Under the pieces are notes generated by a model. The model searched no databases and was not told the origin of the DNA. It worked only from the letters and a program-made list of their open reading frames with translations. Of a stretch of DNA of 32,466 nt, positions 1,131 to 14,043 are shown piece after piece. Within the stretch, counting starts at the first letter, position 1; each line of letters begins with the position of its first letter. Source of the DNA: Akkermansiaceae bacterium (GTDB lineage: Bacteria > Verrucomicrobiota > Verrucomicrobiia > Verrucomicrobiales > Akkermansiaceae); the NCBI GenBank assembly GCA_903878115.1, contig CAIRGO010000002.1, positions 1 to 32,466 of the forward strand. Reading direction: 5' to 3'. A program made the translations under genes and the position numbers.

Positions 1131-2165
1131 TCAACGAATTTCAGGTAAATTCTTGCCTGAAGCTAGGGCGAAGTTTCTTTCATTCTTCGCAAGTTCTAGA
1201 TCTGCATCAGTCATGATTTGCACGAGCTCCTTAAATTTGACTTTTGGTTCCCAGCCGAGTTGTTTTTTTGCCTTTGCTGGATCACCGATGAGCAACTCGA
1301 CTTCCGCGGGACGCTCATAGCGTTTGTCGTAATCAACGTATTTTTCCCAATCGAGTCCGACGTGTTGAAAAGATTCTTGCACAAATTCTCTGACCGAATT
1401 TGTTTGATTGGTTGCCACCACATAGTCGTCGGGAGAATTTTGCTGTAGCATGAGCCACATCATTTCGACATATTCCTTTGCGTATCCCCAATCACGCTTT
1501 GCATCAAGATTTCCTAAAAACAGTTTATCCTGCAAACCCATCTTGATTTTTCCCGCAGCCCGCGTGATTTTTCGAGTCACGAAAGTTTCACCACGCCTCG
1601 GCGACTCATGATTGAACAAAATTCCATTGCTCCCGTGAAGTCCATAGCTTTCACGATAATTCACTGTTAGCCAATAGCCATAGACTTTGGCGCAACCATA
1701 AGGAGAACGTGGCCAAAAGGGCGTAGTCTCGGTCTGCGGAATTTCTTGAACTTTACCGAACATTTCAGAAGAAGACGCCTGATAGTAGCGTACTTTTTCA
1801 ATGATACCCGTTTGATGGATCGCTTCTAGCAATCGTTGCGTGCCTAGTCCGACAATATCACCGGTATATTCAGGCGCGTCAAAACTCACTCGAACATGGC
1901 TCTGTGCTCCTAAATTGTAAATTTCATCTGGTTCGATTTCATGCAACAATTTTGCGAGATTTGTTCCATCGGCAAGATCTCCGTAATGCAAAAATAAGCG
2001 AGTTCCGTCTTGATGAGGATCGCGGTAAATATGGTCGATACGATCCGTATTAAAAGTAGAGGCTCGACGTATAATCCCATGGACCTCGTACCCCTTTTCC
2101 AAGAGTAACTCTGTGAGATAGGAACCATCTTGGCCTGTGATGCCTGTGATTAATGCTTTTTTCAT
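1131..2165 (-). CDS. gmd: GDP-mannose 4,6-dehydratase
   Basis: Converts GDP-D-mannose to GDP-4-keto-6-deoxy-D-mannose, the first step to GDP-L-fucose, in the cytoplasm. It is an extended SDR enzyme of 344 aa: NADP-binding [11 protein letters not shown] at residues 7-17, SSSEMFGK at 131-138, the catalytic YGCAK (Y156, K160), and the Gmd-typical [16 protein letters not shown]. The ATG at 2165 is preferred because it places [14 protein letters not shown] at the N-terminus as in other Gmd proteins; an in-frame upstream start at 2189 would run back into the preceding gene. Only 4 bp separate it from the nucleotidyltransferase of module A, which lies between gmd and its pathway partner fcl, normally its neighbour. 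Confidence 0.96.
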
Positions 2166-2169
2166 ATTT

Positions 2170-2736
2170 TTAGTTTTGATCGAGAGCAACGACTACTTCG
2201 CTCCATGACTTGGTCAAATTGAGTTCCAATGCTGCTTCGGAAATCATAGCCATGTCCACTTGCTGCATGCGGCAGACTGCGACAATGTCTCTGATATGCT
2301 TGCCGTGTCCGCCTTCTTGATAGAAAGCCAGCTTATGTATGATCACATATTCAGGAGGCGCGACACTGATGGTTATGCCATCTTTGAAAAGTCGAATTTT
2401 TCGTTGTAATGCCCAAGCTAAGTAGGGATGATTTTTGGAAGGATAAATATCAGCTTTCATCCCTGAATCATGATGAATGATGTTGAAATGTCCGCGAATG
2501 CCTCGCTTGCATTCGATCTGAATCACATCGAGCGGTGGGAGATAATAGCTTTCCTCGGGAAAAATCGTTGGCAGCAACAAAATCTGAGCTGGATTGAGAA
2601 ATAAGGCAATGTCGATGTCAGCAGTGAAACGAGGTTCACCCAAAAGCGAGGTAGCAACGGAACCAGAGACGAGATACTCAAATCCCTCCTCCTCCAGGGG
2701 TGCGATAAAACAGCTAATGAGGTCAGGTGGTAGCAT
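2170..2736 (-). CDS. MNT/AbiEii-like nucleotidyltransferase-fold protein (module A)
   Basis: A 188-aa protein with the nucleotidyltransferase core: GS at residues 25-26 followed by TADIDIAL (D40, D42), a third acidic residue in KADIY (D96), and a C-terminal [10 protein letters not shown]...KHIRD block like that of AbiEii/MNT-type toxins. Active-site residues look intact. It is a full-length paralogue of the protein at 13275-13841, which has the same length and matching blocks such as IFPEE, YLPP and APPEYVI. The ATG at 2736 was chosen over an upstream start at 2811 because it matches the paralogue and overlaps the stop of the small upstream gene by 14 bp, suggesting translational coupling. 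Likely the enzymatic half of a toxin-antitoxin-like pair; the target (tRNA, protein or other) cannot be read from sequence. Confidence 0.85.
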
Positions 2737-2941
2737 GAAGAAAAATGTGGGCAAGTTCGCGTTTGACCTGTTCTTCGGTCCACTCGGGATGCTGATGCTT
2801 GAGCATCGCATATTTCATTTCACGTGCTTGGCGTTGGATACTGCAGAACAGTTCACATTTTTCTTGGAGGCTCATTTTTTTCCAAATCTCCATTTGTGCG
2901 GGATCTGGTAAATCATGGGATGAATGTGAGATTTTTTGCAT
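2723..2941 (-). CDS. Small helical partner of the module A nucleotidyltransferase (putative antitoxin)
   Basis: A 72-aa, probably all-helical protein. Its C-terminal half carries SLQEK, then AREMKYAMLKHQHPEWTEEQ, then a basic/acidic helix. The same pattern (SLxEK or TLxEK ... A..xK..ML[KR]..HP[DE]WTExQ) recurs in the small gene at 13834-14043, which also precedes a homologous nucleotidyltransferase. The shape resembles short proteins often annotated as Rv0078B-related antitoxins encoded beside nucleotidyltransferase toxins; that link is from memory and was not tested. It starts 24 bp after fcl ends and its stop overlaps the start of the nucleotidyltransferase by 14 bp. Existence is supported by the conserved pairing; the antitoxin role is inference. 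Confidence 0.75.
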   Translation of the reverse strand: MQKISHSSHDLPDPAQMEIWKKMSLQEKCELFCSIQRQAREMKYAMLKHQHPEWTEEQVKRELAHIFLHATT

Positions 2942-2965: not shown

Positions 2966-3913
2966 TCACCCAACCCTTGCGCTACCATCTTGCAAAGACG
3001 AGAGGAAATCAGAATAAGCGGCTTTGAGCCCCTCTTGCAGCGATATTTGCGTGCGCCAACCAGAGGAGAGAATGAGTTGAGTGTCTAGGAATTTACGCGG
3101 ACAACCATCAGGTTTTGTCAAATCATTGACAATTTTGCCATCATATCCGACAGCTTTCGCTACCATTTGCGCAAGATTGGCGATACTAATTTCCTTGCCA
3201 GAGCCAACATTGATCCAATCGGGTGGATTTTCTAATTCTAACAAGTGGAAGCAAGCTTCGGCAAGATCGTCACAATGGAGGAATTCACGCAAGGGGGTTC
3301 CTGTTCCCCACATCGCGATCTCTTGATCACCATGTAGTTTTGCCTCATGAAAACGACGAATGAGCGCAGGGATAACATGGCTATTTTCCGCATGATAATT
3401 ATCGCCTGGACCATACAAATTGGTGGGCATGGCTGAATGATAGAGCAAGCCATACTGTTGACGATAAAACTGACACATTTTAAGACCCGAGATTTTTGCA
3501 ATCGCATAGGCCTCATTCGTAGGTTCAAGAGCGGCAGTATTCAATGCCTGCTCACGCACAGGTTGCTCAGCAAATTTAGGATAAATGCAAGAGCTACCTA
3601 AAAACAATAGACGTTTAACACCTGCACGTCGCGAACCTTCGATGAGATTGATTTCCAATGACAGATTGTCATAAATAAATTCTGCTGGATACTGTGAATT
3701 CGCCCAAATACCTCCCACTTTCGCGGCAGCAATGATCACACAATCTGGCTGATGTTTTTCCAAGTAGGAAAACACAGCCTGCTGATCCCGTAAATCAAGT
3801 TCATTACGATCGACCGTGATGATATTTTGATAGCCTCGCTGTTCCGCAGAACGCACCAGAGCCTTGCCAACCATACCTTTATGGCCACAGATAAATAATT
3901 TTTCTGATGTCAT
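2966..3913 (-). CDS. fcl: GDP-L-fucose synthase (GDP-4-keto-6-deoxymannose epimerase/reductase)
   Basis: Performs the 3,5-epimerisation and NADPH-dependent 4-reduction that turn the Gmd product into GDP-L-fucose. The protein is 315 aa: ICGHKGMVGKALVR at residues 8-21 binds NADP, AAAKVGGIWANS is typical of the family, GSSCIYP lies at 106-112, and the catalytic pair is Y136/K140 in YAIAK. The PTNLYGPGDNY and ENSHVIPALIRRFHEA blocks are also classic Fcl. The ATG at 3913 is chosen because it forms an ATGA overlap with the stop of the upstream glycosyltransferase; an upstream frame-open start at 3952 would add 13 unrelated residues. Module A separates it from gmd. Confidence 0.96.
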   Translation of the reverse strand: MTSEKLFICGHKGMVGKALVRSAEQRGYQNIITVDRNELDLRDQQAVFSYLEKHQPDCVIIAAAKVGGIWANSQYPAEFIYDNLSLEINLIEGSRRAGVKRLLFLGSSCIYPKFAEQPVREQALNTAALEPTNEAYAIAKISGLKMCQFYRQQYGLLYHSAMPTNLYGPGDNYHAENSHVIPALIRRFHEAKLHGDQEIAMWGTGTPLREFLHCDDLAEACFHLLELENPPDWINVGSGKEISIANLAQMVAKAVGYDGKIVNDLTKPDGCPRKFLDTQLILSSGWRTQISLQEGLKAAYSDFLSSLQDGSARVG

Positions 3914-5031
3914 GAAAATTTTTCTGTCATTTCGTTGATTTGATGATGCCATGCTTCTGCAAATACATGATCTGTAAAGTAAGCCTCATAGCGTCTCCGC
4001 GCAGCAAGACCCATGTCGGCGAGCTTGCTTCGATCTACTAACATTTCTCGTAATGCAGCACATAGAGATTCTGTGTTGGCTGGCTCACAAAAAACACCTT
4101 CTATACCCTCGCGCACCGCCTCACGAGTCGCCCCCACATCAGTTACGATTGAAGGAACTCCATAAGACATTGCGTCTAACAACGCCAGCGGAAATGCTTC
4201 CGTCCAAGAGGGAAGGCAAAAAATGTCGGCTTTTAGTAGAAGCTCCGATTTTTCCAATCCATACGCGGGTCCTTGATAGCAAATTCGTTCCGGAAACTTG
4301 CCAAGATCAAACTTCGCTTTCACTTCAGTTTCGATTTCATTGATGCCAATATTACCGCGAAACAGAAAGCGAACATCGGAAAACTCTGCGCACAGTATTT
4401 CTGCGGCATCGAACAATTCGCGCCAGCCTTTTTCTTGATCAATCACAGAAATGAACAGTGCATTAATTTCGTGATTCATTCCTGGCACTGCCTGTCGTGT
4501 CAAACAGCCGGCCGTATCTGAAATCCCATTCGCAATTTCTCTAATCGGCTTACTCTTCGTCCATGCTGGCCAAGTTCGTGAAAGTGATGGCGCGCAGGCA
4601 ACCCAACCTTCGATCGAACGCACTAAGAAGCGAGCGATTTCCTTGAACCAGAGCGGACGATTCTCTAGGTCTAGTCGATTCGGGTCCATGTGCACCCACA
4701 CCAGCACACGACAACCTAGAATCCACCGTGCAAAGAAAACCAAAGCACAGTCTTTTAGAAATGGTCCGGGAAAAAAGGCAAATGTAGTGATCAGTAGGCG
4801 CGCATTTTTATCGCAGACTAACCTTTGAAGCTCTAACAAGTATTGCCAGAATCTAGCGATTTTACCAAACGAAAACCCACGTAGTTTTGCGCGATCTTCA
4901 TCATACACTGCATTGATTGGATGAATGACAACATCATTCCACGAACGGCTTTGATTCAACAATACATTTGCCATCATCGCTTGACCATGAATGACAGGAT
5001 TGATGTGCGTGAATAAAATGGCGTTTTTCAC
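3910..5031 (-). CDS. GT4-type (GT-B fold) glycosyltransferase, group 1
   Basis: A cytoplasmic or membrane-associated glycosyltransferase of about 373 aa that probably adds one sugar of the repeat unit. The C-terminal half shows the Glycos_transf_1 signature: FISVIDQEKGWRELFDA, LLKADIFCLPS, then WTEAFPLALLDAMSYG, which is the EX7E donor-binding motif with Asp in place of the last Glu. The N-terminal half begins with NAILFTHINPVIHGQA, the usual first strand and Gly-rich loop. I take the GTG at 5031 as the start because it places this strand at the N-terminus; the longer frame from 5112 would overlap the end of wbpE. The 3' end overlaps fcl by 4 bp (ATGA). Acceptor and donor are not deducible; it is one of only two glycosyltransferases in the operon. 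Confidence 0.88.
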   Translation of the reverse strand: MKNAILFTHINPVIHGQAMMANVLLNQSRSWNDVVIHPINAVYDEDRAKLRGFSFGKIARFWQYLLELQRLVCDKNARLLITTFAFFPGPFLKDCALVFFARWILGCRVLVWVHMDPNRLDLENRPLWFKEIARFLVRSIEGWVACAPSLSRTWPAWTKSKPIREIANGISDTAGCLTRQAVPGMNHEINALFISVIDQEKGWRELFDAAEILCAEFSDVRFLFRGNIGINEIETEVKAKFDLGKFPERICYQGPAYGLEKSELLLKADIFCLPSWTEAFPLALLDAMSYGVPSIVTDVGATREAVREGIEGVFCEPANTESLCAALREMLVDRSKLADMGLAARRRYEAYFTDHVFAEAWHHQINEMTEKFS

Positions 5032-5062: not shown

Positions 5063-6157
5063 CTAGGCCAACACGGCTTTGAACGCGTCGCACACTTGTT
5101 GCACTTCTGCATCAGCGAGATACGGATTCATCGGCAGGCTTAGGCCGTGACTGGCTACGCGCTCGGCGATAGGAAAATCACCTATTTGATGACCCAGATA
5201 CGCAAATACGGGTTGTAGGTGCAAGGGAACAGCGTAGTAACTGACGCTTGGCACGCCGGCCTTGGCCAGTGAGGCACTTAATTCATCGCGCTGTGGATGG
5301 AGAATCGTGTATTGCGCATAGACGCTGGTATTTCCGGGAGCGAGTCGCGGGATTTCCACTCCGAGAGGCGCTAGAGCAGCATTGTAGCGTTCTGCGACCA
5401 GTTGACGTTTGATGATTTCATCAGGAAAAATTTCCAATTTTTCTAACAAAATTGCCGCTTGCAGAGTATCGAGGCGGCCATTGATTCCGACGATAGGATG
5501 GTGGTGTTTTTTCGCCTGACCATGAACCCTAATTTGGCGCATGATGCCGGCTAAATGATCATCGTCTGTAAATAATGCACCGCCATCGCCATAACAGCCG
5601 AGAGGTTTCGAGGGGAAAAATGATGTGCTGCCGATAACAGATAATGCACAAGATTGTTTGCCGTAATGAGTAGACCCGAAGGACTGAGCCGCGTCCTCAA
5701 TAACAGGAAGATTGTATTTTGTAGCAATGGCATTGATCGCAGTCATGTCTGCGGTTTGCCCGTATATGCCGACGGGCATGATGGCTTTTGTTTTGGGAGT
5801 AATGGCAGCTTCCAACTGACTAGCGTCCATATTATAGGACACTGGGTCAATATCGACAAATACAGGAGTCGCATGAATCAGCGCAATCATTTCTGCGGTA
5901 GAAATCCATGTATAAGGAACTGTAATAACCTCGTCACCAGGCCCGATGCCCAATGCCATGAGGGCGATGAGCAAGGTATCTGTGCCACTAGCAGCTCCAA
6001 TGCAATGCTTTACCCCCACGTAGTCCGCAAGGCGTTTTTCTAACTCTTCTACTTCAGGCCCCATGATGTAGGCTCCGTGTTCGAGGACAGTTGCGATGCG
6101 ACGATCAATTTTTTCGCGAATGCGTTTCTGTTGTGATTTTAGGTCGATGAATTCCAT
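5063..6157 (-). CDS. wbpE: UDP-2-acetamido-2-deoxy-3-oxo-glucuronate aminotransferase (WbpE type)
   Basis: PLP-dependent DegT/DnrJ/EryC1 sugar aminotransferase that aminates C3 of the 3-keto sugar made by WbpB, using glutamate. The 364-aa protein begins MEFIDLKSQQ and carries GAASGTDTL, IPV-type strand IMPVGIYGQ, VIEDAAQSFG and STSFFPSKPLGCYGDGGA with the PLP lysine at residue 184. The last block matches Pseudomonas WbpE closely, as far as I recall its sequence. An open frame continues upstream to 6214, but the extra residues are encoded by the heptamer repeat, so the ATG at 6157 is preferred. It lies 59 bp after wbpD and 31 bp before the GT4 gene. Together with wbpA, wbpB and wbpD it completes the route to UDP-GlcNAc(3NAc)A. 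Confidence 0.94.
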   Translation of the reverse strand: MEFIDLKSQQKRIREKIDRRIATVLEHGAYIMGPEVEELEKRLADYVGVKHCIGAASGTDTLLIALMALGIGPGDEVITVPYTWISTAEMIALIHATPVFVDIDPVSYNMDASQLEAAITPKTKAIMPVGIYGQTADMTAINAIATKYNLPVIEDAAQSFGSTHYGKQSCALSVIGSTSFFPSKPLGCYGDGGALFTDDDHLAGIMRQIRVHGQAKKHHHPIVGINGRLDTLQAAILLEKLEIFPDEIIKRQLVAERYNAALAPLGVEIPRLAPGNTSVYAQYTILHPQRDELSASLAKAGVPSVSYYAVPLHLQPVFAYLGHQIGDFPIAERVASHGLSLPMNPYLADAEVQQVCDAFKAVLA

Positions 6158-6882: not shown

Positions 6883-7206
6883 TTACACAACAGTATGCTT
6901 ATTGTGACGACTGAAACGATGATCTAGTGCGTTTTCAAATTTTGTCATTCTCCCATTGTAAGCACGATACTGTGTATATGGGTCGTCATATTGTTTTGCT
7001 AACATCGCATATAGTTGAAGTTCGGCCTCTGCTGGCAACTCTGTATCTTGACAGTGCAATATCCCATATTTTCTGAGCCGATTGGATACGATTGCTACGA
7101 GAAGACTTTCGACAGTGATGCGTTTCGCTAGAAAATCATGGAGCCCTGGACGAATCAGTTCTTCGCCGGGTAGATTATTCAGCAAATTGTCACACTTAAT
7201 GTTCAT
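6883..7206 (-). CDS. Conserved partner of the module C nucleotidyltransferase, function unknown
   Basis: A 107-aa protein, probably mostly helical, with LPGEELIRPGLHDF near residues 13-26, SLLVAIVSNRLRKYGI at about 34-49 and a C-terminal YTQYRAYNGRMTKFENAL. I recall the general pattern (LPG..L...GL.D, a helix ending in RLR, then YN..I+RL.SFE.A) from small proteins encoded right beside DUF6036-type nucleotidyltransferases, but cannot check it here. Its ATG at 7206 lies inside the end of the nucleotidyltransferase gene (11-bp overlap), which suggests coupled translation. In contrast to modules A and B, the partner comes second. An antitoxin or accessory role is inference. Confidence 0.72.
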   Translation of the reverse strand: MNIKCDNLLNNLPGEELIRPGLHDFLAKRITVESLLVAIVSNRLRKYGILHCQDTELPAEAELQLYAMLAKQYDDPYTQYRAYNGRMTKFENALDHRFSRHNKHTVV

Positions 7207-7729
7207 CAGAGTTACAAAACGTATTTACTCTATCTATCAGAGCTTCTTGATCTAAAGCAGGATACTTCTCTAGCTGAGGAACCACCTCCTGAAATAGCTC
7301 GCGTAGTCGAGCACGTGTGATCAACTGAGATTGAATCATACCATTTACATCAATCAAATCCCTCGGATGCCCTCTAGAGATTTTTGCTAATGCTTGAGAG
7401 AAAAAATCAAAGTGATAGAAATTGACATTTTTTATACCCGCAATCCAGATACTGCGAGTTTGCCAACCAGGTAGCGCAGGCACAAACTGATCAGGACTAG
7501 CTAATTCTAAATTGACTTCTAATCGATTCTTCAAGTTCTGAAGAGTTTTATAAAAGCCATCTGGTTCTGGATCAGCTTTCATGTCGATATCGATAGTGCT
7601 AGAGCGCCAGCCATACATCACGGCACAGGCACCTCCAGTAAGATAGATGCTGCCCACACCCTTGGACTCCCGAAGAAACTCTTCGATGAATGATTTTAAT
7701 TTAGATTGATCTAGCGGCACCTTAGACAT
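7196..7729 (-). CDS. DUF6036-like nucleotidyltransferase-fold protein (module C)
   Basis: A 177-aa nucleotidyltransferase-fold protein. The core is YLTGGACAVMYGWRSSTIDI with GG at residues 32-33 and D47/D49, then ELASPDQFVPALPGWQ, then FYHFDFFSQALAKISRGH with the likely third acidic residue D108, and RDLIDV. These blocks fit the DUF6036 group and differ from modules A and B, although the fold signature is the same. The active-site carboxylates are present. It starts 15 bp after wbpB ends and overlaps the downstream partner by 11 bp, sitting between wbpB and wbpD of one biosynthetic route. A toxin-like or regulatory role is possible; the substrate is unknown. Confidence 0.82.
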   Translation of the reverse strand: MSKVPLDQSKLKSFIEEFLRESKGVGSIYLTGGACAVMYGWRSSTIDIDMKADPEPDGFYKTLQNLKNRLEVNLELASPDQFVPALPGWQTRSIWIAGIKNVNFYHFDFFSQALAKISRGHPRDLIDVNGMIQSQLITRARLRELFQEVVPQLEKYPALDQEALIDRVNTFCNSDEH

Positions 7730-13274: not shown

Positions 13275-13841
13275 TCAACTATTTGGCTTTGTTGCCTGAA
13301 CTCGATCCCAGGTGGAGCTTAGGTGACGCTGAGTAATTTGTTCTCGCAGGAATGTGAAGTCAATTTCGGAGCTCGTGCTATCAATGATGTTGGCTATATC
13401 GCGCAAGTGTTTCTCCGAGCCGCCTTCTTGGAAAAACTCCATTTTTCTCAAGATCACATATTCTGGCGGCGCGAATGAGACATGGATCTCAGACATTTGA
13501 ATCCGAACGGGTCTCGCCAAAGCCCAATGGTGGAGTGGATCATTTCCAGAGATGTAAACATCCGCTTTGAGCATACTTTCAAGGTGGATGATATTGAGAT
13601 GACCTCGTTGCGTTCTAATACACTCCGCTGTGATTACGTCAGCAGGCGGCAAATAGAATTGCTCTTCTGGAAAAATTTTGCATAACAGTGGAACCTGCAT
13701 TCTCGAAATTTCAACTATCAAATCAATATCATTGGTGAGACGAGGCTGGGCATAAGCGATCGAAGCAACAGAACCGGTGATCAAATAGCGGAACCCGCTT
13801 TTTTCCAGTGGCTGAACAAATGTTGAAATGAGGTCAATCAT
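13275..13841 (-). CDS. MNT/AbiEii-like nucleotidyltransferase-fold protein (module B)
   Basis: A 188-aa paralogue of the module A nucleotidyltransferase (2170-2736), identical in length. Core residues: GS at 23-24 in [20 protein letters not shown] (D38, D40), third carboxylate D94 in LKADVY, and the C-terminal [14 protein letters not shown]...KHLRDI block (K133, D148). [14 protein letters not shown] and GHLNIIH align with [14 protein letters not shown] and GHFNIIH in module A. Divergence between the two copies is substantial, so they are not a recent duplication. Its ATG overlaps the stop of the small upstream gene by 8 bp, and it ends 17 bp before ugd. Target unknown. Confidence 0.85.
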
Positions 13842-14043
13842 GCATCAAAAAAAGCATGCGCCGAGCCTCTTTCAGAAGTTGTGCTTCTGTCCAATCGGGG
13901 TGAGATCTGCGAAGCATTCCGATTTTTACAACTTTTGCCGTTTCATACAAAGCTTGAGCAATGTTTAGCTTTTCCTCCAGCGTAAGAACACGATGAGGCT
14001 GGAGTCTTAGGTTGGGATTTGCATTTCCCATTTTAGCTTTCAT
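13834..14043 (-). CDS. Small helical partner of the module B nucleotidyltransferase (putative antitoxin)
   Basis: A 69-aa basic, probably helical protein. After a short N-terminal tail it reads LTLEEKLNIAQALYETAK, then VVKIGMLRRSHPDWTEAQ and a final KEARRML helix. This aligns without gaps to the module A partner (2723-2941), sharing the L-EEK start, the ML-R/K-x-x-HP-D/E-WTE core and a downstream charged helix. The stop overlaps the start of the nucleotidyltransferase by 8 bp, and the gene starts 4 bp after the methyltransferase stop. The recurrence of a homologous small gene in front of a homologous enzyme is the best evidence that both are real and function as a pair. Confidence 0.76.
   Translation of the reverse strand: MKAKMGNANPNLRLQPHRVLTLEEKLNIAQALYETAKVVKIGMLRRSHPDWTEAQLLKEARRMLFLMHD

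Follow-up and report, generated by a model that had tools for sequence, protein, structure and literature searches.

Two gene pairs in the window, the 32,466-nucleotide stretch of an Akkermansiaceae bacterium contig (CAIRGO010000002.1) analysed here, are very probably (at about 0.85) toxin-antitoxin modules of the MenAT1 type, in which a nucleotidyltransferase would add nucleotides to the 3' end of tRNA and would be blocked by a small MenA1-like protein. MenA1 and MenT1 are the proteins Rv0078B and Rv0078A, which were shown to act as antitoxin and toxin, respectively, in mycobacteria (PMC6504116, PMC10435456). The first-pass annotation, made from the sequence alone, had proposed a putative new toxin-antitoxin family. 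The toxin-antitoxin part of this proposal stays the best reading, but the novelty does not, as both proteins point by fold to the known MenA1/MenT1 complex and the small protein falls within PF18993. The pair is a well-supported addition to the MenAT1 kind, and not a new family or system.

Two gene pairs conserved as a unit

In both pairs the small gene comes first in order and the enzyme second, and the two reading frames overlap (Table 1), by 8 nt in the case of pair B (13275-14043). The coordinates, lengths, strand, 14-nt overlap and HPEWTEEQ core of pair A were all as the first-pass annotation had described them. It had also claimed that the same bicistronic design recurs in pair B with full-length similarity in both proteins. 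The recurrence holds, and so does the claim for the enzymes, whose alignment takes in 179 of 188 aa at 47% identity; that of the small proteins is confined to 40 aa, at 35% identity (E 1e-9), so that their similarity is not full-length. A search of the window's own genome for a third close copy of the pair found none.

Table 1. Features of the two gene pairs and of the genes that flank pair A
Feature	Coordinates	Strand	Description
Pair A small gene	2723..2941	-	72 aa; putative MenA1-like antitoxin, PF18993 family, below cut-off
Pair A nucleotidyltransferase	2170..2736	-	188 aa; putative MenT1-like toxin; R36, T38, D40, D42, D96, K135, H147, D150
Pair A frame overlap	2723..2736	-	14 nt; same length in 63/80 homologous pairs
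Pair B small gene	13834..14043	-	69 aa; PF18993, above curated cut-off
Pair B nucleotidyltransferase	13275..13841	-	188 aa
fcl-like gene	2966..3952	-	context, outside the module; ends 24 nt ahead of the pair A start
gmd-like gene	1131..2165	-	context, outside the module; ATG 4 nt past the pair A end

The same operon contains a third nucleotidyltransferase pair, at 6883-7729 (-), formed by a DUF6036 enzyme (7196-7729) and a 107-aa gene (6883-7206) that overlap by 11 nt. These two genes are kept side by side in locus L157, where they adjoin an RfbC-like gene as well as a MenAT1-like pair.

Relatives of the pair A and B enzymes occur in 37 of 289 genomes of the phylum and in 21 of 57 nearer relatives. 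When the enzyme alignment was used to scan GTDB genomes, at least 517 relatives were returned; the best 80 loci among them, holding 81 enzymes, were analysed further. Judged by the names of the MAGs, these loci come from Verrucomicrobia, Lentisphaerae, Delta- and Betaproteobacteria, Acidobacteria, Fibrobacteres, Phycisphaerae, Hydrogenedentes, Ignavibacteriae, Anaerolineae and others. Across these phyla, the gene directly upstream of the enzyme is a small one that the small-protein profile recognises in 80 of the 81 cases, and the overlap within the 80 pairs measures 14 nt in 63, 17 nt in 9, 8 nt in 5 and 23 nt in 1, with two outliers. The reverse search took Pfam PF18993 as its only query and covered 188 genomes of the class; of its 27 matches, 25 had the enzyme or its remains adjacent. 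The gene-neighbourhood check that the first-pass annotation had suggested, with rarely adjacent homologues as the outcome that would speak against a functional unit, was thus run, and homologues turned out to be almost always adjacent. As had been argued, the small gene and the enzyme are a genuine, well-conserved unit. A published neighbourhood survey counted 21 menA1 genes, 15 of them adjoining a menT-like gene (PMC10435456).

The evolutionary distances of the two proteins correlate with r 0.73, a value inflated by shared species history, and the maximum reached in 1000 permutations was 0.12. Comparison of pair B with its counterpart in genome G294 gave dN 0.16 and dS about 2.9 for the enzyme, at which dS is saturated, and dN 0.24 and dS 1.4 for the small gene, and hence both genes of pair B are under purifying selection. 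With dN far below dS in both genes, and with the recurrence of the arrangement beside 80 of 81 homologous enzymes, a chance arrangement is excluded. Natural fusions of the small protein with the enzyme were looked for and none was found.

Fold and active site of the two proteins

At an E of 0.01 or lower, the PF18993 family ("Rv0078B-related antitoxin") is matched by 22 of 24 small proteins, which bears out the likeness that the first-pass annotation had put forward. This family is the only one matched by the 72-aa protein of pair A, at a score of 23.0 against a cut-off of 27.1. In its AlphaFold model (pLDDT 90), the small protein has helices at residues 14-22, 25-50 and 56-68, among which the MenA1-type shape is found, namely a long helix, a loop and a shorter C-terminal helix. 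The best match of this model among 350,542 chains is MenA1 (8an5_C), over 46 columns at 1.4 A and with a weak E of 1.2. A sequence search of the PDB with the small-protein profile gave chance matches only and no MenA1, and one with single sequences gave nothing useful. A separate branch of PF18993 (L162, L165, L169, L172, L175 and L184) combines enzymes bearing GIPRTTHDLDF with small proteins bearing QMTGEQRLAIALDLHE, in which the HP motif is without Trp.

As for the enzyme, its model (pLDDT 95) was compared with the PDB, and the top four matches are all MenT1 chains (8an5, 8an4 and 8rr5; E about 1e-7), at 16% identity over the fold alignment. MenT1 is also found from sequence by the enzyme profile (E 8e-4). 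The searches with the enzyme and small-protein models therefore each reach a partner of one crystal, 8AN5, and this is the strongest single argument for the MenAT1 identity. Against it count the low identity to MenT1, the E value of the small-protein fold match and the Pfam score of pair A below the cut-off. Of the other families, AbiEii is matched weakly by the pair A enzyme (20.7, cut-off 22.5) and DUF2204 by the pair B enzyme at 23.7 bits, just over the cut-off of 20.3; a DUF2204 match is shared by only 6 of 23 relatives.

The sequence EPRFTRDVD of MenT1 aligns with the family motif EPRxTxDID (EPRFTADID in pair A), and by this alignment T39, D41 and D43 of MenT1 become T38, D40 and D42 of the pair A enzyme. 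In MenT1, T39 is the residue phosphorylated upon MenA1 binding, and toxicity requires D41, K137 and D152 (PMC10435456); the counterparts of the last two, K135 and D150, were assigned by position and not by superposition. The first-pass annotation had noted that the enzyme keeps GS...DID and a third carboxylate, and these are indeed present as G25-S26, D40-I41-D42 and D96. All 82 paired enzymes carry R36, T38, K94, K135, H147 and D150, while D40 and D42 are each found in 80 of the 82 and D96 in 81.

Toxicity, the tRNA target, complex formation and autophosphorylation are features that we infer from MenAT1. The enzyme would bind a nucleoside triphosphate and a metal through D40, D42 and D96, together with K135 and D150, and when free it would add nucleotides to tRNA 3' ends, as MenT1 does, so that translation would be blocked and growth would stop. 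In MenAT1 the antitoxin spans two toxins and occludes the active site. Family and fold suggest that here, too, the long helix of the small protein covers the enzyme on its active-site face, which would keep it inactive. The small protein probably also promotes phosphate transfer to T38 (T39 in MenT1), to judge from the invariance of this residue and from MenAT1. Finally, the overlapping frames may couple the translation of the two genes. For the host, the module may serve to stabilise the locus or to defend against phages. Inter-protein covariation at the binding positions known for MenT1 is not significant (p 0.18), with position 37 (MenT1 F38) ranking 1st of 179. In the first covariation run the three strongest pairs lay inside the shared 14 nt, from which they arose, and the overlap was for this reason left out of the second run.

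Polarity, target and genomic setting

The enzyme is repeatedly found broken with the small gene kept, which fits the enzyme as the toxin and the small protein as the antitoxin. In L171, from a single-contig genome (G088), the enzyme carries two stop codons and the small gene is intact; in L164 and L181 the enzyme is truncated or deleted, again beside an intact small gene. Some of these frame breaks may be assembly errors. One catalytic Asp is gone in the paired enzymes of L065, L067, L081, L138 and L096. An orphan enzyme without a small gene, at L155 7813-8355 (-) (genome G269, contig C73), has DIV in place of DID, the second Asp of the DxD being lost. Only one of 81 enzymes, L075 1123-1680 (+), lacks a small gene on its contig although its DxD is intact, an exception that may come from a chimeric MAG contig.

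Some neighbourhoods of these loci were also recorded. L081 contains two MenAT1-like pairs within 9.3 kb (1115-1675 and 5563-6126, both +), one of whose enzymes has D40 replaced by G. The orphan enzyme of L155 sits between apparent NADH dehydrogenase (nuo) genes, and in L075 an efflux-pump-like gene ends just upstream of the enzyme.

In HepT-MntA pairs it is the small protein that is toxic, with the nucleotidyltransferase serving as its antidote. This precedent could apply to the pairs described here, and the protein cluster of MenA1 was once labelled a SymE-like toxin (PMC6504116). However, Rv0078B rescues the toxicity of Rv0078A (PMC6504116), no HEPN family was matched, and it is the enzyme that is lost repeatedly, the small gene staying intact; a reversed polarity is the least probable of the explanations considered. 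A change of target, rather than of polarity, would make the enzyme a toxin of the same fold, blocked in the same way, but directed at a protein, a small molecule or some RNA other than tRNA. An identity to MenT1 of only 16% is compatible with such a change, same-fold enzymes such as ANT(2'')-Ia act on small molecules, and MenT toxins already vary in their tRNA and nucleotide preference (PMC10435456). Nevertheless, the catalytic set is conserved, including the phospho-acceptor Thr, and MenT1 is closer in fold than any aminoglycoside enzyme, and a target other than tRNA appears unlikely.

The setting of the pairs raises another explanation. In the window, the gene orders are MT-[B]-UGD and fcl-[A]-gmd, and the same operon is found elsewhere in the genus as MT-[pair]-fcl-gmd (L074), UXS-[pair]-UGD (L156) and GT-[pair]-epimerase (L154), and without a pair in L159. 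Strong marker genes adjoin 3 of the 4 pairs in other genomes of the genus versus 0 of 40 control stretches; two of these three may be orthologous, which limits their independence. The fourth pair (L157) adjoins an RfbC-like gene, as seen by sequence inspection. With both window copies and three of the four other pairs of the genus inside polysaccharide operons, the enzyme might be a working part of the pathway, for example in sugar modification or in the regulation of a pathway enzyme, with the small protein as its cofactor. This is highly improbable, since 65 of the 80 homologous pairs are without such genes within 5 kb, the operon occurs with no pair or with the pair at other joints, and the fold is MenT1-like.

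Because the position of the pair varies within the genus, or the pair is absent, the MenAT1-type module appears to be a passenger with a preference for these operons in this genus, and not a pathway gene. The 15 of 80 pairs with polysaccharide genes within 5 kb belong nearly all to one clade, as counted with a marker set drawn from the window's own genes, by which other polysaccharide types could be missed; several of the 15 appear to have neighbours in common, in which case they represent a single event. A general link of the pair to polysaccharide genes was rejected, given the majority of pairs that show none. A narrower suggestion, tentative and on balance doubtful, is that in this Verrucomicrobia genus MenAT1-type modules land preferentially in surface-polysaccharide operons, between whose genes several insertions, moves or losses would have taken place. 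The modules might stabilise a locus that is exchanged horizontally, or tie it to the attack of phages on the cell surface. A search of phage records gave no match, and a plasmid search gave 5 distant matches at about 30% identity.

Comparison with known systems

The toxins of AbiE (AbiEi-AbiEii) and of MenAT3/MenAT4 belong to the same wider DUF1814/AbiEii nucleotidyltransferase superfamily as the enzyme described here, but their antitoxin is of the large, two-domain COG5340/AbiEi type, unrelated to the 72-aa protein (PMC10435456). Membership in AbiE (type IV) was rejected: the partner is a 72-aa protein that matches PF18993 only and not a two-domain AbiEi, and neither pair A nor pair B gave an AbiE match in PADLOC. 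The window's own genome does contain an AbiEii enzyme (109 bits) on contig C131, at L192 1438-2903 (-), where an AbiEi-like gene lies upstream and apparent phage structural genes are adjacent. DUF2204, which the pair B enzyme matches, and DUF6036 are labels of unknown function for nucleotidyltransferases.

Most work on MenAT1 has been done in M. tuberculosis; here, at least 517 relatives of the enzyme were found, and the best 80 loci extend across several phyla. Their near-fixed overlap, invariant phospho-acceptor Thr and natural catalytic-dead relatives provide a comparative set for the action of MenA1-type antitoxins in environmental bacteria.

MenAT1 of M. tuberculosis resembles the pairs described here in having the small gene first, in its PF18993 antitoxin, in the fold of both proteins and in the catalytic and phospho-acceptor residues. 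The sizes are also close, 68 and about 190 aa in MenAT1 versus 72 and 188 aa in pair A. One residue that differs is R40 of MenT1, which is A39 in the pair A enzyme. Also unlike MenAT1, the 14-nt overlap is conserved in the set analysed here, and the copies in the window lie in polysaccharide operons.
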